DNA of 47,941 nucleotides from Lysobacterales bacterium (lineage in GTDB: Bacteria > Pseudomonadota > Gammaproteobacteria > Xanthomonadales > SZUA-36): assembly GCA_013042915.1 (NCBI GenBank), contig JABDPF010000011.1:1-47941 (forward strand), in the 5' to 3' direction. Below, piece by piece: positions 957 to 12,542 of this stretch; positions within the stretch are counted from its first letter, which is position 1; each line of letters opens with the position of its first letter. The position numbers and the translations under genes are program-made. The notes under the pieces are model-generated. The model was not told the DNA's origin. It worked only from the letters and a program-made list of their open reading frames with translations, and did not search any database.

Positions 957-3900
957 ATGTTCATCTGGCATACGCGCAAAACAGTCTCTCTTATACTCAG
1001 CGCGATCGCGCTGGTATGCGGCCCAACGGTGCCCGCACACGCGACGGAATTTACCGACCGTTGTGCGGGCTACGGTAGCCTCAATACGTCCTACTTAATG
1101 AACTGGGAGGCCGGTCTCGGCATCTGGACTGTTAGCCGATCCAGCGTGGTGAGCCAGTCGACGTTCGATACGCCCGACTGGACGGTAGTGGGCGGTCTAC
1201 CGGACGGTAGGGCCGGCTTCGCAGCTTTTGTGGCGGACCTGGTTGCCGGCGATTGCGGGACGGATGACGAAACTGGCCTTCTGCATTTGCAGAGCCCTTC
1301 GATCGATATTCCAGCCGGGGTGGGCGTTCCGAGAGTATCGGTGGACCATTGGTTCGAAACAGAATTCGGATGGGACGGGGGACAAATTCTCATAAGCATC
1401 AATGGCGGCCCCTGGTCACTGCTGCCATCTACTGCCTTCGAGCAATTCCCCTACAACACAACACTTGAACCCGCACTAGATGAATTCGGGGTCGAGTCAA
1501 ACACCAATCCCATGGCTGGAATGAGGGCTTTTAGCGGCACTATCGATGGCCGACCCACGGGGCAATGGGTCCAGTCCAGGATAAATCTTCTCGGTCTAGC
1601 GGACGCCGGCGATTCGGTTCGATTCCGCTTCGATTTTGGAATCGATAACTGCACGGTCAGTCCCATTGATGCGGTGGGCTGGTTCATCGGTGACTTCGAG
1701 CTATACCATTGTGAAGCCGAACTCCCTCCATCAAATTGCGGAAACGGTGTGATTGACGGCCCGGAAGAATGCGATGACGGGAACCGGAAGATTGGGGACG
1801 GCTGTTCCAATGTCTGCGTAATCGAACCTGGTTGGTTATGCGAATTGCCGACGCCTTCAACCCCGGTGGATGACTACAGTTTCGAGGCGGGAACGCCCAA
1901 TCCTTTTTGGACCGAGTTTTCAGACACGTTCCTCGGTACGCCCATATGCGATGCGGCAACATGCGGTTCGCCGAACAACACGGGGCCGGCACATGGTTCA
2001 TTCTGGGCCTATTTTGGCGGATTCCTAAGTGGTGCAAAGGGTTCTGTATCACAGACCGTCACAATACCGCCGACCGCACGTACCCTTGCATTCCAGCTCG
2101 GGCTCCCACGCTGCGATACAGCGTCCGACTATCTTGAGGTATTGATTGACGGCAATCAGGAACTGGTTATAAACGGCGAAGACCCAGCCTGCGATATCCC
2201 GGGATACCAGACGCGGACCGTCGACATTTCCCCCTATGCCGACGGCGGCGTCCATACCCTGGAATTCTATTCCGAAACTTTCGGGCTGGGAGACGGAATT
2301 CAGATGTTTTTTGTGGATGCGGTAGAACTACCGGCCAATCCCAGTTACTGCCGCCTGAATGGAACGAGCCTGATTCTGACAAAACGCGTGTTTAACGACG
2401 ACGGCGGCCAGGCCTACCCAACGGACTGGACACTGGAAGCCTCGGGCCCTTCACAACTTGGTGGTTCGGGTCCTGTTGTGCAGAGCGGCGACGGTTTTCT
2501 GCCAGGCACTTATAGCCTATCCGAGTTTGGCCCTACAGGTTATTCAGGCATCGGCTGGAGTTGTGAAGGTGGCACGCAAATCAACGCCAACACCGTTGAC
2601 ATCGCAGAGAATGAGGCCGTCGAATGCACGCTCTTGAACGAAGATGTATCGCCGTCGATCACCGTAATAAAAAGCATCGTCAACGACAGCGGCGGGACCA
2701 TCGACGATCCGAATGTCTTCGGCCTGAAGATCGACTACGAGCCGGTCCAGCATGGCGATCCAGCTTTTGTCACAGCGGGCGATCACGAGCTATCCGAATT
2801 CGGCCACGCCGGCTACCTTCCGGGAGATTGGGGGGGTGACTGCACGCCGGACGGAACAATCACGCTGGGGCTGGGCGAAGCCGCAACCTGCACGCTGAGC
2901 AACGACGACATCCCCGCTTCCCTGACACTTGTCAAAACGATCGTTAATGACGATGACGGCACGGTAGAGGATCCTAACGCGTTCGAACTCCAGGTGGACG
3001 GACTTACCGTTCTGGACGGCGCAGCAAACATCGTGAGTGCGGGCAACCACCAGGCCTCCGAACTCGGTCATCCGGGATACCTGCCCGGAACGTGGAGCGG
3101 CGATTGCGATCCCGACGGGAACATATCATTGTCGCTGGGCCAGGAGGCGATCTGCAGTATCACCAACGACGACGTGGATCGTACACGTCTCGATCTCGCG
3201 ATCCTGGTCACCAACGATGATGGCGGCTCGGAAACCGTTTCCTCGTGGCAATTGGTGGCAAGCGGCCCCGCTGGTTTCAGCGGCCCCGGACCAAGTGTAT
3301 CCAGCGGAAAAGGGCTTCCGCCCGGTACGTATGACTTGTCGATTGACGGTCCGGTCGTATACGGCGCCAGTGACTGGGTTTGTTCCGGCTCCGGCGTGCA
3401 AAACGACGCCGACACCATCACTCTGACCGTCGATGAGGTGGCCACCTGCACGATTTCCGTCGACGACATCGCGCCGACGTTGACAGTCGTCAAAAACGTT
3501 GTGAACGATAACGGCGGTGATGTGAACGACCCCGACGCCTTTGGATTGCGTGTCGACGGCATCGCGGTTCCGCATGATATCGCAGCGACATTTGACGCAG
3601 GCCTTCACACGGTATCCGAGATCGGGTTACCGGGTTACCAGGCGGGCAACTGGACCGGGCATTGCAATCCGGACGGTTCGATCACGCTTCAGCTTGCGCA
3701 AAATTACACCTGTTCCATAACCAACGATGACATTGCCCCCTCCATCACTGTCTTAAAAACCATCATTAACGACAACGGGGGTACCGTCGAGAATCCCGAC
3801 CTTTTCGGCTTGATGCTGGACGGAATTACCGTATCGCATGGCGTCTCGAATAGCGTGACGGCAGGCCTGCATACCGTGTCCGAGACCGGTATTTCGGGAT

Positions 3901-6900
3901 ACCAGCCGGGCGCATGGGGCGGTGATTGCGCGATAGACGGTACGGTAACGGTAACTATCGGGCAAAACGCAGTTTGTACGATCACGAACGATGACATCGC
4001 GCCGACGCTTACAGTCCTCAACACCGTTATCACAGACGATCAGGGTTCTATCAGCGACCCGAACGCCTTTGATCTGAAAATCGACGGGAACCCTGTTCTC
4101 CATGGTGAGGCCAATGTTCTGAATGCGGGTAGCCACGTGGTATCCCAGACGGCAATCCAGGGTTACCAAGCGAGCTCATGGAGCGGCGACTGCGATGCGT
4201 TCGGCACTATTTCTCTCGATCCGGGTGAAAACGCGACGTGCACCATCACCAATGATGATTCGGGTAATACCCAGCTCACCCTGGTCATAGAGGTCAACAA
4301 CGACGCGGGCGGCAGCAACTCGAGCGGAGACTGGACGCTCAGTGCCACCGGACCGTCGAGCTTTGACGGACAGGGGCCGACGGTCATCGGGGGGCCGGGG
4401 CTCACCCCGGGCACCTATCAACTCGCGCAGTCCGGGCCGGAAGGCTACGAATCTGGCGACTGGAATTGCACCGGCGGTACGCAAGTCAACGGCGACAGCA
4501 TAACGCTCGAACTCGGAGAGTCGGCCACGTGTTCCCTGACCAAGGACGACATCGCGCCGACCATCACCCTGGTTAAAACCATCGTCAATGACAACGGCGG
4601 AACAGTCGACGATCCAAACGTATTCGGTCTACTTATCGACGGCTTTGCCGTTTCACACAATGTGCCATTCACGACTTTTGCGGGTTCGCACACCGCATTG
4701 GAAATCGGCGTTCCCGGTTATGCAACCAGTGCCTGGGGCGGCGATTGCTCCACGGACGGCTCGATAACCGTGTCCGTGGGACAGGATGCGGTTTGTACCA
4801 ACGAAAGCGACGATATCTCACCCCGACTCACCATCGACAAGACCGTCATCAACGACAGTGGGGGCTTGGTTACGGATCCCGACGCGTTTGGGCTTTTGAT
4901 CAATGGCTTAGAGGCCCTGGACGAAACGGAATACCTGGTGGACGCGGGCAATCACACGGTCTCGGAGGTCGGGTTGTCCGGCTACGTGCCCGACAACTGG
5001 GGTGGTGATTGCAATCCGGACGGCAGCATCACGCTCCGATTGGCCCAGGTTGCTACCTGCACGATTACCAATGATGACATCAATGATACTTCGTTGACGC
5101 TGGTCAAGCAGGTTATCAACAACAACGGCGGCACTGCATCCGGTTCCGACTGGACGCTTAACGCCTCTGGCCCTGATAGCTTTGGCGGACCAGGTCCTTC
5201 GGTCACCGGCGGACCCGCGCTAACCGCCGGTGATTACGTACTCTCGGAATCAGGCGGTCCGTCCGGCTACATAGCCAGTAACTGGTCCTGCAATGGCGGC
5301 GTTTTACTCGGCGACACCATCACGTTGGCCAGCGGGAACGTGGTGACCTGCACGATTACCAACGACGACACGGACACCACCAGCCTCACGCTGGTTCTCG
5401 AGCTAAGCAACGACAGCGGCGGCACGGCCTTGCTCTCGGAGTGGATCCTGTCAGCAGCGGGCCCCACCGAGTTCAGCGGGTCCGGCCCAACTGTTTTCAA
5501 CGGGCCATCATTTTCCGCCGGAGTCTACGACCTTGCATCCAGCGGCCCCGCCGGTTACGCGATGAGCGATTGGTCCTGCGTCGGCGCGATACAGGATGAT
5601 GCGGACACCGTCACGCTCGCCCTTGGCGATACGGCCACCTGTACCGTCCAGGCCGATGACATGGCCGCGCAATTGACCGTGATCAAGACCATCTTGAACA
5701 ACAACGGCGGTAATGTGACCGACGAAAATGTTTTCGGTTTGCGCGTCGATTCAGTGCCTGTGTTGCACAACGTACCCGGGCCTCTGGACGCTGGCGAACA
5801 TACCGTTTCCGAAGACGGGCTGGCCGGTTATCTGGGTGGCGCCTGGGGCGGTGATTGCGCCCCCGACGGGTCCATTACTCTCGAACTCGGTGAAATTGCG
5901 GAGTGCACGGTCACAAACGACGACATTGCGCCCTCGCTCACGGTCTTGAACACGATCACCAATGACAACGGCGGCACTGTCATCAATCCCGATATGTTCG
6001 CGCTTAAAGTCGACGGAGGTCTCGTATCCAACGGCGTGGCCAACGTATTGGAAGCGGGCCTGCACCTGGTTTCACAGGATAGCCAGGACGGTTATGTCGC
6101 TTCGGTGTGGGGTGGGGACTGCAACGCCGACGGCAGCATCGCCCTGTCGCTGGCCCAAAACGCCGTCTGCACCATCACCAACGACGACTCGCCTCCCAGT
6201 CTGACGCTCGTCAAAGAGGTCACGAACGACAACGGTGGAGAATCCGTTCCCTCGGCGTGGACCCTATCGGCGGCCGGAACGTCGCCACTGAACGGTCCCG
6301 GTCCCATAGTAACCAGCGGATCCACCTTTCAAGCAGGCAGCTACGACCTGTCGGAAAGCGGCGGTGAGCCGGGTTATGAGGCCAGCGACTGGGTCTGCGT
6401 CGGCGGATCCCAGGCCGACGCAGACACCATCAGCCTGACGATCGGCGAGATCGCCACATGCACCATCACCAACGACGATATCGGCCCTAAACTGACGCTC
6501 GTGAACACCGTGCTCAACGACAACGGAGGCTCGGTCGACAACCCGAATGAATTCGGCCTGAAGATCGATGATGAACCGGTACTCAACAACACACCGGTGG
6601 ACGTGGATGCAGGCAACCATGCGGCTGGAATGGACGGCTACGCCGGGTATGAAATCAGCAACTGGGGCGGGGATTGCGCTGCCGACGGCAGCATCACGCT
6701 GGCACTGGCCCAGGAAGCGACCTGCTCGGTGACGAGCGACGACATCGCGCCGCTGCTGACTGTTTCGAAGACCGTGATAAACGACAACGGTGGCACCGTT
6801 ATTGACCCCAACGCGTTTGAGCTGAAAGTCGACGGGTCGCCGGTTACCCACGGTGTTCCGGTTGAGCTCGACGCGGGTAATCACACCGCTTCCGAGGAAG

Positions 6901-8204
6901 GCCAGGACGGGTACGAAGCTTCCACCTGGGGAGGAGATTGTTTCCCGGACGGAAGCATCAGCCTGTCGGTAGGTGACGAGGCGATCTGCACCATTACGAA
7001 CGACGATCGAGAACCGAGCCTCACGCTGGTCAAGCAGATCGTCAACGAGTACGGCGGCGACGCATCTCCCTCGGACTGGACCATCAGCGCGTCCGGCCCC
7101 GGCAACTTGAGCGGCCCGGGTCCGATCATCTCAAGCAACCCCGGGTTCGAGGCAGGCACGTACGCTCTGTCGGAAAGCGAAGGCGCAGCGGGTTACGTAT
7201 CGGGCGATTGGAACTGCGTTGGAGGTACCCAGATCGACTCCGTCACCATTGCCATCGAGCTGGGCGAATCGGTCACCTGCACCATTACAAGCCAGGACAT
7301 CGCGCCAACGCTCACGCTGCTCAAAACCGTGATCAATGACAACGGCGGCACGGTGACCGACCCGGACGCCTTTGGCTTGATGATCGACGGCGAGATCGTC
7401 CTGCACGGTACACCCACTGAGCTGAATGCCGGCACGCACACGGCATCAGAGGTCGGTCTGCCCGGCTACGCGGCCCAGTCCTGGGGCGGTGAATGCTCCG
7501 CGACCGGTGTCATCGAGCTCGAAGTCGGCCAGGACGCCATGTGCACATTGACCAATGACGACAAGTCCCCGTCGCTGACGCTGGTGAACGTCGTTTACAA
7601 TGACAACGGCGGCACGGCTTCCGCGTCTGACTGGATACTTGAGGCTTCAGGGCCCCTGCCCGGCAACAGCAGCGGTTTCAGCGGTCCAGGCCCGGTAGTT
7701 TCTGGCGGTGCAAATTTCGAAGTAGGCACTTATGACCTCACCGTTAGCGGCGGAGAGACGGGCTATACCATTGGCAACTGGAGCTGCATCGGCGGCGCGC
7801 AGGCGGATGCCGACACCGTGATCCTGGAGCCGGGCAGTTTAGCTACATGCCGCATCAGTCAAGATGACGACCCCCCTGTCCTCACGTTGATCAAGACTGT
7901 TGTCAATGACAATGGCGGCAGTGCCCAGCCTTCAGATTGGACCCTGGTCGCCTCCGGCCCCACCAGTTTCAGTGGCCCAGGCCCGCAAGTAGAAAGCGGC
8001 GCGAACTTCGATGCAGGAATCTACGACCTGTCCGAGACGGATGGCCCTGGCGGATACATTGCCGGGGACTGGTCCTGCACCGGCGATTTTCAGCTCGACC
8101 TGGATACGATTCAACTGGGCAACGGCGAGTTCGCAACCTGCACTCTGATCAACACCTTCGATGCTCCACCGATCATCTTCCGCGACGGCTTCGAGAGCCC
8201 CTGA
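957..8204 (+). CDS. Giant secreted protein with 21 two-cysteine prealbumin-like repeats
   Basis: A 2415-residue exported protein of unknown function. It has a signal peptide (residues 1-29, cut after PAHA) and a beta-sandwich domain to about residue 255, shared with the protein at 10197-12542. A Myxococcus-type Cys-rich DUF4215 motif follows (about 260-297: NCGNGVIDG, EECDDGN, GDGCSNVC), then a second MAM-like sandwich to about 465. From about residue 469 come 21 tandem modules of 80-95 residues, each opening with a variant of LTLVKTVxNDNGG and closing with a variant of ATCTITNDD. The tail is APPIIFRDGFESP. Every module has two Cys, so 42 half-cystines could form one bond per module. The modules are rich in Asp, Asn and Gly and may bind calcium (inference). 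The start ATG has AGGA six bases upstream. A surface adhesin or stalk is the simplest reading; no secretion genes lie nearby. Confidence 0.92.
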   Translation: MFIWHTRKTVSLILSAIALVCGPTVPAHATEFTDRCAGYGSLNTSYLMNWEAGLGIWTVSRSSVVSQSTFDTPDWTVVGGLPDGRAGFAAFVADLVAGDCGTDDETGLLHLQSPSIDIPAGVGVPRVSVDHWFETEFGWDGGQILISINGGPWSLLPSTAFEQFPYNTTLEPALDEFGVESNTNPMAGMRAFSGTIDGRPTGQWVQSRINLLGLADAGDSVRFRFDFGIDNCTVSPIDAVGWFIGDFELYHCEAELPPSNCGNGVIDGPEECDDGNRKIGDGCSNVCVIEPGWLCELPTPSTPVDDYSFEAGTPNPFWTEFSDTFLGTPICDAATCGSPNNTGPAHGSFWAYFGGFLSGAKGSVSQTVTIPPTARTLAFQLGLPRCDTASDYLEVLIDGNQELVINGEDPACDIPGYQTRTVDISPYADGGVHTLEFYSETFGLGDGIQMFFVDAVELPANPSYCRLNGTSLILTKRVFNDDGGQAYPTDWTLEASGPSQLGGSGPVVQSGDGFLPGTYSLSEFGPTGYSGIGWSCEGGTQINANTVDIAENEAVECTLLNEDVSPSITVIKSIVNDSGGTIDDPNVFGLKIDYEPVQHGDPAFVTAGDHELSEFGHAGYLPGDWGGDCTPDGTITLGLGEAATCTLSNDDIPASLTLVKTIVNDDDGTVEDPNAFELQVDGLTVLDGAANIVSAGNHQASELGHPGYLPGTWSGDCDPDGNISLSLGQEAICSITNDDVDRTRLDLAILVTNDDGGSETVSSWQLVASGPAGFSGPGPSVSSGKGLPPGTYDLSIDGPVVYGASDWVCSGSGVQNDADTITLTVDEVATCTISVDDIAPTLTVVKNVVNDNGGDVNDPDAFGLRVDGIAVPHDIAATFDAGLHTVSEIGLPGYQAGNWTGHCNPDGSITLQLAQNYTCSITNDDIAPSITVLKTIINDNGGTVENPDLFGLMLDGITVSHGVSNSVTAGLHTVSETGISGYQPGAWGGDCAIDGTVTVTIGQNAVCTITNDDIAPTLTVLNTVITDDQGSISDPNAFDLKIDGNPVLHGEANVLNAGSHVVSQTAIQGYQASSWSGDCDAFGTISLDPGENATCTITNDDSGNTQLTLVIEVNNDAGGSNSSGDWTLSATGPSSFDGQGPTVIGGPGLTPGTYQLAQSGPEGYESGDWNCTGGTQVNGDSITLELGESATCSLTKDDIAPTITLVKTIVNDNGGTVDDPNVFGLLIDGFAVSHNVPFTTFAGSHTALEIGVPGYATSAWGGDCSTDGSITVSVGQDAVCTNESDDISPRLTIDKTVINDSGGLVTDPDAFGLLINGLEALDETEYLVDAGNHTVSEVGLSGYVPDNWGGDCNPDGSITLRLAQVATCTITNDDINDTSLTLVKQVINNNGGTASGSDWTLNASGPDSFGGPGPSVTGGPALTAGDYVLSESGGPSGYIASNWSCNGGVLLGDTITLASGNVVTCTITNDDTDTTSLTLVLELSNDSGGTALLSEWILSAAGPTEFSGSGPTVFNGPSFSAGVYDLASSGPAGYAMSDWSCVGAIQDDADTVTLALGDTATCTVQADDMAAQLTVIKTILNNNGGNVTDENVFGLRVDSVPVLHNVPGPLDAGEHTVSEDGLAGYLGGAWGGDCAPDGSITLELGEIAECTVTNDDIAPSLTVLNTITNDNGGTVINPDMFALKVDGGLVSNGVANVLEAGLHLVSQDSQDGYVASVWGGDCNADGSIALSLAQNAVCTITNDDSPPSLTLVKEVTNDNGGESVPSAWTLSAAGTSPLNGPGPIVTSGSTFQAGSYDLSESGGEPGYEASDWVCVGGSQADADTISLTIGEIATCTITNDDIGPKLTLVNTVLNDNGGSVDNPNEFGLKIDDEPVLNNTPVDVDAGNHAAGMDGYAGYEISNWGGDCAADGSITLALAQEATCSVTSDDIAPLLTVSKTVINDNGGTVIDPNAFELKVDGSPVTHGVPVELDAGNHTASEEGQDGYEASTWGGDCFPDGSISLSVGDEAICTITNDDREPSLTLVKQIVNEYGGDASPSDWTISASGPGNLSGPGPIISSNPGFEAGTYALSESEGAAGYVSGDWNCVGGTQIDSVTIAIELGESVTCTITSQDIAPTLTLLKTVINDNGGTVTDPDAFGLMIDGEIVLHGTPTELNAGTHTASEVGLPGYAAQSWGGECSATGVIELEVGQDAMCTLTNDDKSPSLTLVNVVYNDNGGTASASDWILEASGPLPGNSSGFSGPGPVVSGGANFEVGTYDLTVSGGETGYTIGNWSCIGGAQADADTVILEPGSLATCRISQDDDPPVLTLIKTVVNDNGGSAQPSDWTLVASGPTSFSGPGPQVESGANFDAGIYDLSETDGPGGYIAGDWSCTGDFQLDLDTIQLGNGEFATCTLINTFDAPPIIFRDGFESP
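2365..8160 (+). repeat. Array of 21 coding repeats of two module types (A and B)
   Basis: Two related module types alternate. Type A continues after NDNGG with SDWTLxASGP, then FSGPGP, AGTYDLSESG, WSCxGG and ATCTITNDD. Type B has a DPNAFGLxVDG segment, DAGxHTVSE, GYxAGxWGGDC, PDGSITL and ATCTITNDD. Reading along the protein, the order is A BB A BBB A BB A A BB A BB A B A A: nine A and twelve B. The modules have diverged in sequence, so this is an old duplication series rather than a recent slippage expansion. The family is best described as prealbumin-like/SpaA-like Ig fold. I recognise it by motif only. Confidence 0.9.
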
Positions 8205-8222
8205 GACAAGACGACTCGGTCG

Positions 8223-9806
8223 TTATTCAAAACCGTTGGCAAAAATAATGGCCGGGTTGGAAAGGTCTTCACTGTAGATCAAATAGGCTTCGCCGGCATC
8301 GGCGACATAGGTGGACGCATCCGGAGCACCCGCTATCAGGTCAATCCAGCTATCGTTGTTGAGATCGCCGGCTGCGGATACCGCGGCACCGAACGCATCA
8401 CCGCCGGTTTTGCCCGCGATGATTTGCCCGCTCGCACCGGACAGGCCCGACAAAAAAATCGATGCCGACCATCCGCCCGCCTTGCCGTGAACTACGTATG
8501 CCGCGCCGGAATCGACCTGACTCAGATCGGATTTTGGCGCTCCCACTACTGCATCGTCGATGCCGTCGCGGTTCAAATCGAAACCGCCGGCCACAGCTGC
8601 TCCGGATTGAGCGCCAACTTCATCACCAACCAGCGCGAATCCGTTACTGCCGTCAAGAGTCGCGACATTCAACTCGGCCGCGTAGGGGGTTCCGGAACCA
8701 AAAATGACATAGCTGCTCCCGGCATCCGCCAGACCACCGGGGCTTGCTTGGGGGGCCCCTATTATCAAGTCGTCGAAACCCTCCAGGTCGATATTGCCCG
8801 CCACCGCCACGGACTCGCCGAAATTATCCTGGTCGGCAGCGCCGTTGATCGTGAGCCCGTTGCTGCCATCGAGAGCGTTCAGGTTCAGGGTAGCCCCAAA
8901 TGGTTGATTACTGCCGAATACGATGTAGGCCTTGCCGGTGTAATTATTTTCTTCCCCGGCCAGCGGCGCGCCTATGGCTATATCATCATAGCCATCGCCG
9001 TTGAGGTCGAAGCCGCCTGCAACGGACTGACCCAGTACGTCCCCTAGGCCAACCGATGCCATCGCGAAACCGTTGGCCCCGTTCAGCACGTCGAAGGAAC
9101 CGGGTAATTCGCCAGCGCTTCCGAAAACCACGTAGGCCGCACCAGAAGAACCATTGGCGAACCGTGCACCGATCACCAGGTCATCGGTTCCGTCCCCGTT
9201 GACATCACCGGCGCCCGCCACTGAGCTGCCCGCGTCCGCATTTTCTTCTATCCCTGCAATTACATGGTAATCCCCCGGTAAAGACAGGTCGATCGGGCTT
9301 TCAAACCCCTGATCGGTGCCGAAAATCAAGTAAACCGCACCACCGAATTGCGCACCGAGACTCGAAGCCGGGGCGCCAAGTACCAGGTCATTGAAACCGT
9401 CACTGTTTATATCGCCGGCGTTAGCGACAGAAAAACCAGCGTAATCGAACTGACCGGCGCCCAGGATTCGCACTTTTTCCGTATCGTCAAGAGACGCCAG
9501 GGCGAGCGGGTGTGGCAGAGGATTCGCTTGACCGAAAACAATATCGACAATACCCGAATCTGCGCCGTTTGGATCGGCAGTTGGAGATGCCACAACGAAG
9601 TCATCGAATCCATCGCCGTTAATGTCTCCGGCCGCACTGACGGAACGACCCAAATCGTCCGGCGTGAGCCCGCCCCGTACAGCAACCCCATTCGAGCCAT
9701 CGAGTTGCGATACGGCGAAACTATCGGCCAATAGGCTGACGGGTAACGCAAAAAGGGCCAGGACGAATGCAGCCCCCAGCCTGCGGCCATTTTCATAGTT
9801 GCTCAA
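8223..9806 (-). CDS. Secreted FG-GAP (integrin-alpha-like) seven-bladed beta-propeller protein
   Basis: A 527-residue exported protein. After a hydrophobic leader (about residues 10-28, ending SLLADSFA) there are seven FG-GAP units, each with a DxNxDGxxD-like calcium loop followed by a [VI]xGAP-like strand and a GxAYxxFG-like strand. The loops include GDINGDGFDDF, GDINSDGFNDL, GDVNGDGTDDL, FDLNGDGYDDI, GNIDLEGFDDL, FDLNRDGIDDA and GDLNNDSWIDL. Seven units make one complete propeller. The C-terminus NPAIIFANGFE matches the tail of the convergent giant protein, whose stop lies only 18 bp away. The start codon is TTG with GGGG ten bases upstream; no better in-frame start is seen. Such propellers commonly bind calcium and mediate adhesion. 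The ligand is unknown. Confidence 0.88.
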   Translation of the reverse strand: MSNYENGRRLGAAFVLALFALPVSLLADSFAVSQLDGSNGVAVRGGLTPDDLGRSVSAAGDINGDGFDDFVVASPTADPNGADSGIVDIVFGQANPLPHPLALASLDDTEKVRILGAGQFDYAGFSVANAGDINSDGFNDLVLGAPASSLGAQFGGAVYLIFGTDQGFESPIDLSLPGDYHVIAGIEENADAGSSVAGAGDVNGDGTDDLVIGARFANGSSGAAYVVFGSAGELPGSFDVLNGANGFAMASVGLGDVLGQSVAGGFDLNGDGYDDIAIGAPLAGEENNYTGKAYIVFGSNQPFGATLNLNALDGSNGLTINGAADQDNFGESVAVAGNIDLEGFDDLIIGAPQASPGGLADAGSSYVIFGSGTPYAAELNVATLDGSNGFALVGDEVGAQSGAAVAGGFDLNRDGIDDAVVGAPKSDLSQVDSGAAYVVHGKAGGWSASIFLSGLSGASGQIIAGKTGGDAFGAAVSAAGDLNNDSWIDLIAGAPDASTYVADAGEAYLIYSEDLSNPAIIFANGFE

Positions 9807-10196: not shown

Positions 10197-12542
10197 ATGA
10201 CAATGACGCCACGCAAAATCCGGAATCTAGGTTTCCTGTACACCCTGGCGATCCTCACAGCCACCATCACTGGCCCTGTGTTTGCACAGAACAACCTGGA
10301 CGGTCTGTGCTCTGAACCGGACGATCTGCAAAGCCTTTATCGACAGGACTGGGAGGCCGGTCTCGGTCCCTGGACCGCCGACCGTTACGATATCGGCAAC
10401 CCCAACACTTTCGATACACCCGACTGGTCGACCCCGGATGGTCTTCCGGGTGGGCGTATCGGCCGAGCGGCATTCGTACCCAATCTGAACATCGGGGATT
10501 GCGCGACCGATGACGAGAGTGGCGTGCTTTCGCTCGAAAGCCCGGATATTGCGCTGCCCGTTGGCACCTACGTGCCGCGCGTGGCCCTGGAACATTGGTT
10601 TGACATCGAACCGCAATGGGACGGTGGCAACATTCGGATCAGCGTGAACGGAGGCGCGTTCACGCTGGTGCCCCAAAACGCGTTCGAGGCCAACGGCTAC
10701 AACGATACCCTGTTCGAGCCGACGGACGAATTCGGCGTACTGCTCAATCTCAATCCACTGGCCGGACAGCCGGCGTTCACGGCGATAAGTGGCGGCGACC
10801 CGGCTGCCTGGGTACAGTCCGAAATTAACCTGTCCGGTATCGCGGAGCCCGGCGACACCGTTCGTTTGCGCATCGATTTCGGTATCGACGACTGCAACGG
10901 GAGTGTCGGTTGGTATGTGGACGACGTGGAGGTCTACAGCTGTGCGTCCGAGGCCTCTGTTGTTTGCGGCGACGGCTTGGTGGAAGGCGTGGAGCAGTGC
11001 GATGACGGCGACACGTCCGACGGGGACGGCTGCTCCGCTTCCTGCACGGTCGAAGACGGCTGGACCTGCGACGATGCCAGCCCCAGCCAGTGCACCGAGG
11101 TGGTCTTGGAAACGCGCTTGACGCTGCGCAAAGTCGTCGTGAACACCAACGGGGGTACCGCCGCTGCATCCGACTGGACCCTGACCGCCTCCGGACCGAC
11201 CGGCTTCAGCGGACGCGGCCCGACGGTTCAAAGCCCGGTTGGCTTCGAGCCTGGAAACTACGATTTATCGGAGGCCGGTGACGTAGCGGGTTATGCGGCC
11301 AGCGCGTGGAGCTGCGAAGGCGCCAGCATGATCGAATCCAATAGCGTAGCCATTGCCGTGGGCGGAACGGTGACCTGTACCGTGACGAATTCGGACATCG
11401 CGCCTTCCCTGACCCTGGTCAAAGAGGTCGTCAACGACGACGGGGGCACCGCGGCACCGTCGGACTGGTTATTGACCGCCACCGGCCCCACCGGATTCAG
11501 CGGCCCGGGCCCGTCGGTCCAAAGCGGCACGGAGTTCCGCGCCGGCACCTATAGCCTCAGCGAAAGCGGCGGCCCCGGGGGTTACGTCGAGGGAGCCTGG
11601 GCCTGCAGCGGTGGCAATCAGATTGACGGCCACACCCTGGCCATTGCTATCGGCGAGACGGCCACTTGCGTCGTGACCAACGATGACTTCGACCCTGATG
11701 CGGCTATCAACGTCGGTCACAACGGCGCCTGGTACAACCCGGCCACTGGGGGTCAGGGCCTGCTCCTGGATATCGATCCGGTTACCGAGTACATGTTCGT
11801 CGCCTGGTTTACATTCACGCCCGAAGATTCAGCTCAGCCGTTCGAGCAGCGTTGGCTGACCGCCCAGGGTGAGTACTCGGGCAATCAGGCCGAGTTGGTT
11901 CTGTACGAAACACTGGGCGGTGAATTTAATCAGCCGATAACGGTAGAAACGCTCCCTATCGGCACCCTGACGCTCGTTTTTGGGGGCTGCGAGGACGGCT
12001 ACGCAAGCTACCGGATCGACGACGAAGGAATCGAAGGTGAGTTTCCGCTCATAAGAGCGATTCCGGGCTCTGGCTCGGTTTGCCAGGACCTCGTGTCCGA
12101 GGCGTCGGCCGAAACGGACTTCGCGACGCAATCCATCGGTATCAACAGCGGTTTGGACGGCGCCTGGTACGACCGCGACACGTCGGGTCAGGGTTTCCTG
12201 ATTGACGCCAATCCGGACCCCGTCAACGGCAATTTCCTGTTCATTGCTTGGTTTACGTTCGGCGACACCAACGCCTCGGGACAATGGTGGCTGACCGTAC
12301 AGGGTGCTTACGACGTTACGCCTGCGGAAGTGACGATATACGAAACCACCGGGGGCAGCTTCGACGATCCCCGAACCGTCGAGACGTCGCCCGTCGGTGA
12401 AATGCAGGTTGACTTCATCGACTGCAACAACGCCACGTTGACCTTTGACATTCCCGGGCGAGGTCTGCAGGACCAGGTCACAGTCACACGGGTCCTTCCG
12501 GGAACGGAGGAACTGTGCGAACAAATTGTCGGAGCGGACTGA
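10197..12542 (+). CDS. Secreted short paralogue of the giant repeat protein with duplicated C-terminal domain
   Basis: A 781-residue exported protein of unknown function. It has a signal peptide (to about residue 30, VFAQ) and an N-terminal sandwich clearly homologous to that of the 2415-residue protein (shared DWEAGLG, FDTPDW, DEFGV, RFDFGID-like blocks). A DUF4215 motif follows (VCGDGLVEG, EQCDDGD, GDGCSASC), then only two type-A modules, each with two Cys. The last 275 residues hold two copies of another domain, each beginning near GAWYxxxTxGQG and containing FIAWFTF and WLTxQG. It lacks the IIFxxGFE tail and ends CEQIVGAD. Two ATGs compete: 10197 lies only two bases after GGAG, whereas 10203 has an eight-base spacing and is the more likely start (779 residues). 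Confidence 0.9.
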   Translation: MTMTPRKIRNLGFLYTLAILTATITGPVFAQNNLDGLCSEPDDLQSLYRQDWEAGLGPWTADRYDIGNPNTFDTPDWSTPDGLPGGRIGRAAFVPNLNIGDCATDDESGVLSLESPDIALPVGTYVPRVALEHWFDIEPQWDGGNIRISVNGGAFTLVPQNAFEANGYNDTLFEPTDEFGVLLNLNPLAGQPAFTAISGGDPAAWVQSEINLSGIAEPGDTVRLRIDFGIDDCNGSVGWYVDDVEVYSCASEASVVCGDGLVEGVEQCDDGDTSDGDGCSASCTVEDGWTCDDASPSQCTEVVLETRLTLRKVVVNTNGGTAAASDWTLTASGPTGFSGRGPTVQSPVGFEPGNYDLSEAGDVAGYAASAWSCEGASMIESNSVAIAVGGTVTCTVTNSDIAPSLTLVKEVVNDDGGTAAPSDWLLTATGPTGFSGPGPSVQSGTEFRAGTYSLSESGGPGGYVEGAWACSGGNQIDGHTLAIAIGETATCVVTNDDFDPDAAINVGHNGAWYNPATGGQGLLLDIDPVTEYMFVAWFTFTPEDSAQPFEQRWLTAQGEYSGNQAELVLYETLGGEFNQPITVETLPIGTLTLVFGGCEDGYASYRIDDEGIEGEFPLIRAIPGSGSVCQDLVSEASAETDFATQSIGINSGLDGAWYDRDTSGQGFLIDANPDPVNGNFLFIAWFTFGDTNASGQWWLTVQGAYDVTPAEVTIYETTGGSFDDPRTVETSPVGEMQVDFIDCNNATLTFDIPGRGLQDQVTVTRVLPGTEELCEQIVGAD

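Follow-up and report, generated by a model that had tools for sequence, protein, structure and literature searches.

Why do two unrelated exported proteins, encoded by convergent neighbouring genes, end in nearly the same short peptide? The question is raised by contig JABDPF010000011.1 of a Lysobacterales bacterium (assembly GCA_013042915.1), of which positions 1 to 47,941, i.e., a stretch of 47,941 nucleotides hereafter called the window, were analyzed. It encodes a giant exported SpaA_2 repeat protein of 2415 amino acids (aa) (957..8204, + strand; from the list of open reading frames (ORFs) and Pfam) and, facing it, an exported FG-GAP propeller protein of 527 aa (8223..9806, − strand; from the ORF list, Pfam and a structural model). 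The former ends with ...DAPPIIFRDGFESP (fuller tail, APPIIFRDGFESP), in which IFRDGFE (8175..8195, +) is followed by SP and the stop codon at 8202-8204, and the latter ends with ...LSNPAIIFANGFE, a tail reading NPAIIFANGFE, in which IFANGFE (8226..8246, −) lies immediately 5′ of the stop codon at 8223-8225. We found that this peptide is a recurrent terminal tag of exported proteins in one bacterial order, and that the genomic feature found to track it best is a second type II secretion system (T2SS), encoded by gspC-D-E-F and equipped with a PDZ-type GspC; this is a correlation, not proof.

A terminal tag on unrelated exported proteins

A prediction made from the letters of the window (the original prediction) had taken the shared tail for a sorting or processing tag on two unrelated proteins. 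The lack of relationship was borne out by Pfam, which recognized 21 SpaA_2 stretches in the giant protein and seven FG-GAP stretches in the propeller protein, with no family in common, while a signal-like segment opens both of them. The tail itself is real and far beyond chance. In the genome of the window (2.69 Mb, 96% complete) the I-F-x-x-G-F-E DNA pattern gave three matches, and its reversed form, used as the control, gave none; the third match is the C-terminal end ...ELIFNSGFEN of an exported reprolysin-like zinc protease, so that one further exported protein of this genome is tagged. Within the order (200 genomes), the stop-anchored pattern produced 779 matches, with a maximum of 40 per genome, versus three controls, and within the window's family (f1, 39 genomes; the f-numbers are family labels of the genome sample and are not equated with named families) the unanchored pattern produced 108 matches versus 10 controls. 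In 365 genomes of the same class but outside the order there were 13 matches, at most one per genome, versus eight controls, i.e., the background level, so the tag belongs to a single order. In records of other phyla, the matches read (80 of 118 stretches) lie in short frames, none of them longer than 146 codons. Among the matches listed in named genomes, the tag was present in Marinicella, Tahibacter, and Pseudofulvimonas, as well as in metagenome-assembled genomes labelled Rudaea, Chiayiivirga, Lysobacterales, and others. It should be stressed that the stop pattern TRR admits TGG: two f9 genomes (G101 and G127), whose matches rested on TGG only, were recounted as untagged, which did not alter the probabilities given to the explanations below, and further single stop-anchored matches were only partly checked for this.

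The consensus built from 255 C-terminal tags reads D-x-I-F-x-[D/N]-G-F-E. As the pattern used to scan the named genomes had fixed A/G-A-C/T at position +4 and a TAA stop, the residue composition was recomputed without those loci, and among the 164 tags whose neighbouring positions the search pattern left free, D occupied position −2 in 82 and D or N position +4 in 124, against an upstream background of 5.7% D and 4.6% N in the same comparison; D at −2 is absent from both window tags. The chain ends exactly at GFE in 112 of these 164 tags, and one to five extra residues follow in the other 52. At the DNA level, 243 of the 255 tags have distinct 21-mers and every synonymous codon occurs. This free mixing of codons shows that selection acts on the peptide and not on the DNA. 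Chance was accordingly rejected on the match counts, which far exceed the controls, and a spreading DNA repeat on the codon diversity. A third way of denying the tag a function would be to regard it as the relic start of a jelly-roll type domain (FESGD-like), and further domains indeed follow some of its N-terminal or junction copies; given the counts, the free synonymous codons, and the concentration at chain ends, we give hardly any credence to a non-functional origin of any of these three kinds.

The carriers are exported and diverse. A crude signal-peptide rule was passed by 79 of 103 tagged ORFs versus 297 of 778 untagged neighbours, and in several of the 24 tagged ORFs that failed it a Sec or Tat signal is visible by eye. 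They include SpaA_2 repeat proteins, FG-GAP propellers, reprolysin-like proteases, and a Tat-type DUF1501 protein. In six tails, the tag was not covered by any NCBIfam or Pfam model, Pfam giving only FG-GAP repeats and two weak chance matches. The original prediction had also held that the tails lack the membrane helix and basic tail of CTERM signals, which is correct, and no CTERM model matched the six 40-residue tails at E-values up to 10. In an AlphaFold model of the window FG-GAP protein (mean predicted local distance difference test score (pLDDT) of 85.5), the chain is ordered to about residue 515, while residues 516-526, including the tag, fall below a pLDDT of 50, so that the last 11 residues appear disordered; the model rests on five sequences, the four relatives all having been found via their tails. 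The tag of this protein is thus predicted to be an exposed, flexible end.

The motif had been expected at C-termini only, and this expectation failed, as a clear minority of copies is located at the mature N-terminus, right after the signal peptide. In f1, 66 of 96 distinct matches lie within five residues of the stop, and several of the remaining ones directly follow a signal peptide (L042, L051, L052, L066, L026). Five tag-rich genomes gave 122 unanchored matches, and the 30 loci obtained from them hold 31 matches, of which 22 are within five residues of the stop, four right after a signal peptide (L387, L393, L399, L410), two have 14-15 residues left, and three are placed otherwise. Two further N-terminal cases (L418, L424) come from G041 and from an f8 genome or its like. 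The motif is thus less common inside proteins than at chain ends. N-terminal carriers include Lcl_C, abhydrolase, and PQQ propeller proteins and two DUF1800 proteins; the latter (L387, L399) belong to two families, and DUF1501 proteins (L067 and, in the same cluster, L057, L079, L084) carry the tag C-terminally and in f1 stand beside an ORF looking like DUF1800. Moreover, tandem tags 9-13 codons apart occur in G100 (C1:225719/225749, C2:363493/363523, C5:141901/141928, C5:172872/172902), G088 (C17:340953/340983), and G047 (C70:17873/17912), and were read out in L358, L421, and L370. Seven loci (L339, L349, L364, L365, L373, L220, L227) encode very small exported proteins (about 60-105 aa), which are made up only of the tag, a signal peptide, and a short domain of the ...GGFW-like kind. 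The N-terminal and tandem copies, neither of which the original prediction had noticed, are not explained by a strictly C-terminal cutting enzyme, and a bound peptide can explain them.

These results bear on the processing half of the original prediction, i.e., that a dedicated protease or sortase cleaves the tag or attaches it to the envelope. One short terminal motif on many unrelated exported carriers is what CTERM systems present; however, the tag has neither their helix and basic tail nor a match to their models, and copies right after signal peptides do not fit a C-terminal sortase. No pointer to processing or cleavage was seen, although sortase, exosortase, and rhombosortase genes were not searched for. 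We consider a processing signal very unlikely, whereas the sorting half of the prediction, a recurrent terminal tag on exported proteins, stands.

The fifth residue of the core, a variation likewise overlooked at first, changes from Gly to Arg or Ser in some lineages. Genus g22 of f9 (21 genomes) has no stop-anchored G-type match and 35 R-type matches versus one control (one of the 35 ends in TGG), and all 12 R-type g22 loci read are ORF ends F-x-x-R-F-E, one of them in an ORF of only 38 codons. In f7, a looser pattern gave 22 matches versus one control, and 16 of them are ORF ends [I/V/L]-F-x-[D/N]-[S/G]-F-E. That unrelated proteins encoded by one genome switch in concert is an argument for a trans-acting reader.

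As for the rest of the window, the third exported protein (10197..12542, +; SpaA_2 and DUF4215-like by the ORF list and Pfam) bears the tag at neither end and terminates in ...EELCEQIVGAD, as the original prediction had stated. It shares SpaA_2 and DUF4215-like cysteine-rich segments with the neighbouring giant protein (957-8204), and just one of the two is tagged.

A second type II secretion system and its co-occurrence with the tag

A GspD search in 75 chosen genomes of the order pointed to two kinds of T2SS. Among 40 T2SS loci, 21 were assigned to type b, 18 to type a (an Xps-like operon), and one was intermediate (L323 of G092). Type b is a short cluster gspC-D-E-F, followed by ftsE-ftsX where fully readable (e.g., L292, L294, L301, L306), and one such cluster was scored as GspC, D, E, and F. 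The best tblastn identity was 22-29% between the types and mostly 37-53% within a type. T2SSC and PDZ domains were recognized in all 13 aligned type-b GspCs, while seven proteins at the GspC place of type a had neither a PDZ nor a T2SSC match. This agrees with the description of Xanthomonas XpsC in PMC11981180, where its second periplasmic domain is a single helix, in contrast to the PDZ fold of OutC and EpsC. Two arrangements around type-b clusters are worth mentioning: in G034 a giant protein resembling the SpaA_2 repeat protein of the window (L306:15903-19901, −) adjoins rho and the cluster, and in two f8 genomes an alpha/beta-hydrolase-like ORF lies between gspC and gspD (L300:8622-9539, +; L302:10779-11690, −).

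The original prediction had proposed to look for a gene family that co-occurs with the motif, and the PDZ-type system (T2SS-b) was found to do so in most of the order's families, the window's own showing exceptions. The type-b GspC (GspC-b) was counted as present below an E-value of 1e-30, a cut set after the scores had been seen, which leaves G184, G092, and G168 (1e-25 to 1e-16) as absent; on this count it occurs in 100 of the 200 genomes. Stop-anchored tags were found in 82 of the 100 genomes with GspC-b versus 14 of the 100 without it (kinship not corrected), so that GspC-b is present in 82 of the 96 tagged genomes; the window genome is without it. The 14 tagged genomes lacking GspC-b comprise seven of f1 and seven drafts (G081, G090, G138, G178, G186, G189, G194) that are 77-94% complete. 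The unanchored pattern, applied to 84 chosen genomes with f1 left out, gave 811 matches versus 12 controls in 43 genomes with GspC-b, and 24 matches versus three controls in 41 without it, 15 of the 24 falling in the drafts G081 and G090. Nine genomes with GspC-b and fewer than three unanchored G-type matches (two of f7, seven of g22) belong to the variant-tag lineages.

The clearest contrast was observed within families f2 and f12. By the stop-anchored pattern (all 68 genomes), five of five genomes with GspC-b are tagged versus none of 63 without it. By the unanchored one (43 of the 68), each of these five has 19-41 matches, while the 38 without GspC-b together have nine versus three controls, which is background. 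Additionally, G055 is both the sole genome of the 75 without a GspD match and the sole f8 genome of 33 without a stop-anchored tag. This genome is 4.7 Mb in size and 100% complete.

Candidate readers of the tag

We propose that T2SS-b reads a short linear recruitment signal with IFxxGFE at its core; this reading is built on correlation, not proof, and we assign it a probability of roughly 50%. According to this proposal, the tag D-x-[I/V/L]-F-x-[D/N]-[G, or R/S in some lineages]-F-E would sit on a flexible chain end, usually the C-terminus and less often the mature N-terminus, of proteins reaching the periplasm via Sec or Tat. The exposed peptide would there be bound by T2SS-b (gspC-gspD-gspE-gspF), probably through the GspC PDZ domain, the periplasmic domains of the secretin, or both, and folded, structurally unrelated proteins would in this way be recruited through the outer membrane, presumably to the surface or the medium. 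In the literature, PMC12369372 describes binding of the OutC PDZ domain by a loop of PelI that is disordered, and a need for the PDZ domain of EpsC in the secretion of VesB. Strict C-terminal PDZ recognition, requiring a free carboxylate, was rejected because of the 52 tags with trailing residues and the N-terminal ones; the tag may, however, bind a PDZ domain as an internal peptide. The fuller picture, i.e., a portable linear T2SS signal carried by numerous unrelated proteins (as many as about 60 matches in a genome), functional at either end, read by the PDZ domain of GspC, and changing together with its reader (Gly to Arg, Gly to Ser), is advanced tentatively, as somewhat doubtful in its entirety. 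In f9, nine columns of the GspC PDZ domain differ without overlap between 10 R-type and eight G-type genomes, a difference confounded by genus. Columns 106 and 117 are acidic in R-type f9, but G-type f5 has an acidic column 117 as well, both acidic columns recur in three g22 genomes that have no R tags, and the R-type call for G127 rests on a TGG match.

Several observations weigh against recruitment by T2SS-b. The genomes are related, and the clear independent co-losses or gains number about three. Eleven f1 genomes, the window's (G000) and G003, G005, G006, G008, G014, G021, G023, G024, G029, and G036, together carry 28 C-terminal tags, although the search for GspC-b gave nothing better than 2e-8 in any of them. 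Four of them (G000, G003, G014, G024) were included in the GspD search, with one match listed for each above the cut-off, and the loci fetched (G000, G014, G024) are of type a. Reprolysin-like homologues keep the tag in three such f1 genera (L001, L012, L023), and something else may therefore read it there. Reciprocally, four f1 genomes (G001, G013, G028, G033) have GspC-b, and no tag was found in them with the patterns used, the single unanchored matches in G033 and G013 not being tags; twelve f9 genomes with GspC-b are without a stop-anchored G- or R-type tag, three of them (G064, G046, G077) having one variant tag each. Single R-type matches can be due to chance, as the controls of the R pattern yielded 42 matches across the 200 genomes. 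Furthermore, PDZ-type GspC is known outside the order (PMC12369372), where the tag is at background, so that the system is not sufficient. The exceptions in f1 and f9 lead to the same conclusion, and in f1 GspC-b is not necessary either. Finally, PF03934, used as a second-pseudopilus marker, missed the window genome and cross-matched long unrelated frames, so this marker is uninformative and a complete T2SS-b is unproven.

The f1 tags either are relics, or are read by another component, or the true reader is something that T2SS-b merely accompanies. Tags without trailing residues make up 20 of 30 in two genomes with T2SS-b versus eight of 28 in the eleven f1 genomes without it; reading the trailing residues as decay was nevertheless dropped as a main argument, since G117, G043, and G132, which have T2SS-b, often show them too.

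The main rival to recruitment by T2SS-b is a surface-docking tag with another reader: the carriers would be exported by any route, and the peptide would bind a surface or extracellular receptor that holds the enzymes at the cell, this receptor being co-inherited with T2SS-b, which may export it. The tag occurs at both termini and as tandem copies, as expected of a peptide that is bound, docking accounts for the f1 tags without T2SS-b and does better there than recruitment, and the Gly to Arg switch in g22 fits a co-evolving receptor as well. Nevertheless, no family of receptors was found, it is a secretion system that co-occurs cleanly with the tag in f2, f12, and f8, and the f2 and f12 pattern is explained only through co-inheritance. 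Clustering of 584 ORFs from tagged loci revealed no recurrent machine beside the tagged genes, only partners, by which a reader encoded next to them was rejected; no recurrent receptor gene appeared there, although an unlinked one would not show. On balance, docking seems to us rather less likely than recruitment. The f1 genomes are also the ground for supposing that any type II secretion system, including type a, or a component common to both systems reads the tag, with T2SS-b only raising the number of tagged substrates, because a GspD of type a, and none of type b, is present in the four tagged f1 genomes that were checked. Yet the 38 f2 and f12 genomes without GspC-b mostly have a type-a or other GspD where sampled and tags at background, which makes general reading improbable.

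Relation to known sorting signals

The tag appears as a sorting tag undescribed in the models and literature searched: no description of it was found there, also with literal tag strings, most subscription journals being outside that search. Whatever its reader, hundreds of exported proteins in Marinicella, Tahibacter, Pseudofulvimonas, and their relatives bear it as a sorting tag, which would help annotators to recognize secreted proteins and may offer a handle for protein export or display. If T2SS-b reads it, we know of no earlier linear signal for this machine, and grafting the tag should send folded proteins out of the cell. Substrate choice by T2SSs is an old open question, which the tagged lineage makes directly testable.

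In the PEP-CTERM/exosortase and IPTL-CTERM systems, one C-terminal tag is common to many unrelated exported proteins and is patchy across genomes. The tag described here resembles them in both respects, and differs in having no helix and no basic tail and in not being limited to the C-terminus. The C-terminal domains of type IX secretion, some 70-80 residues long and found in another phylum, are likewise a C-terminal address for an outer-membrane secretion machine, whereas our tag has about nine residues and no model match; a Por_Secre_tail-like domain was not matched by the six tails in NCBIfam or Pfam. GlyGly-CTERM, the rhombosortase signal, is also short, C-terminal, and borne by unrelated exported enzymes, and one of its carriers, VesB, is a type II substrate (PMC12369372), but it includes a membrane helix and undergoes C-terminal processing, while the tag is helix-free and also occurs N-terminally. 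According to PMC7949064 and PMC12369372, no common linear signal of T2SS substrates is apparent and the information is thought to be structural. The nearest counterparts described there are the determinants of PelI/Pel3 and VesB read by GspC and GspD, in which a flexible exposed region meets the PDZ domain of GspC and promotes export of the folded protein, much as proposed for the tag. Those determinants are substrate-specific, composite, and set in folded domains, whereas the tag is one linear sequence placed at the chain ends of many unrelated proteins.

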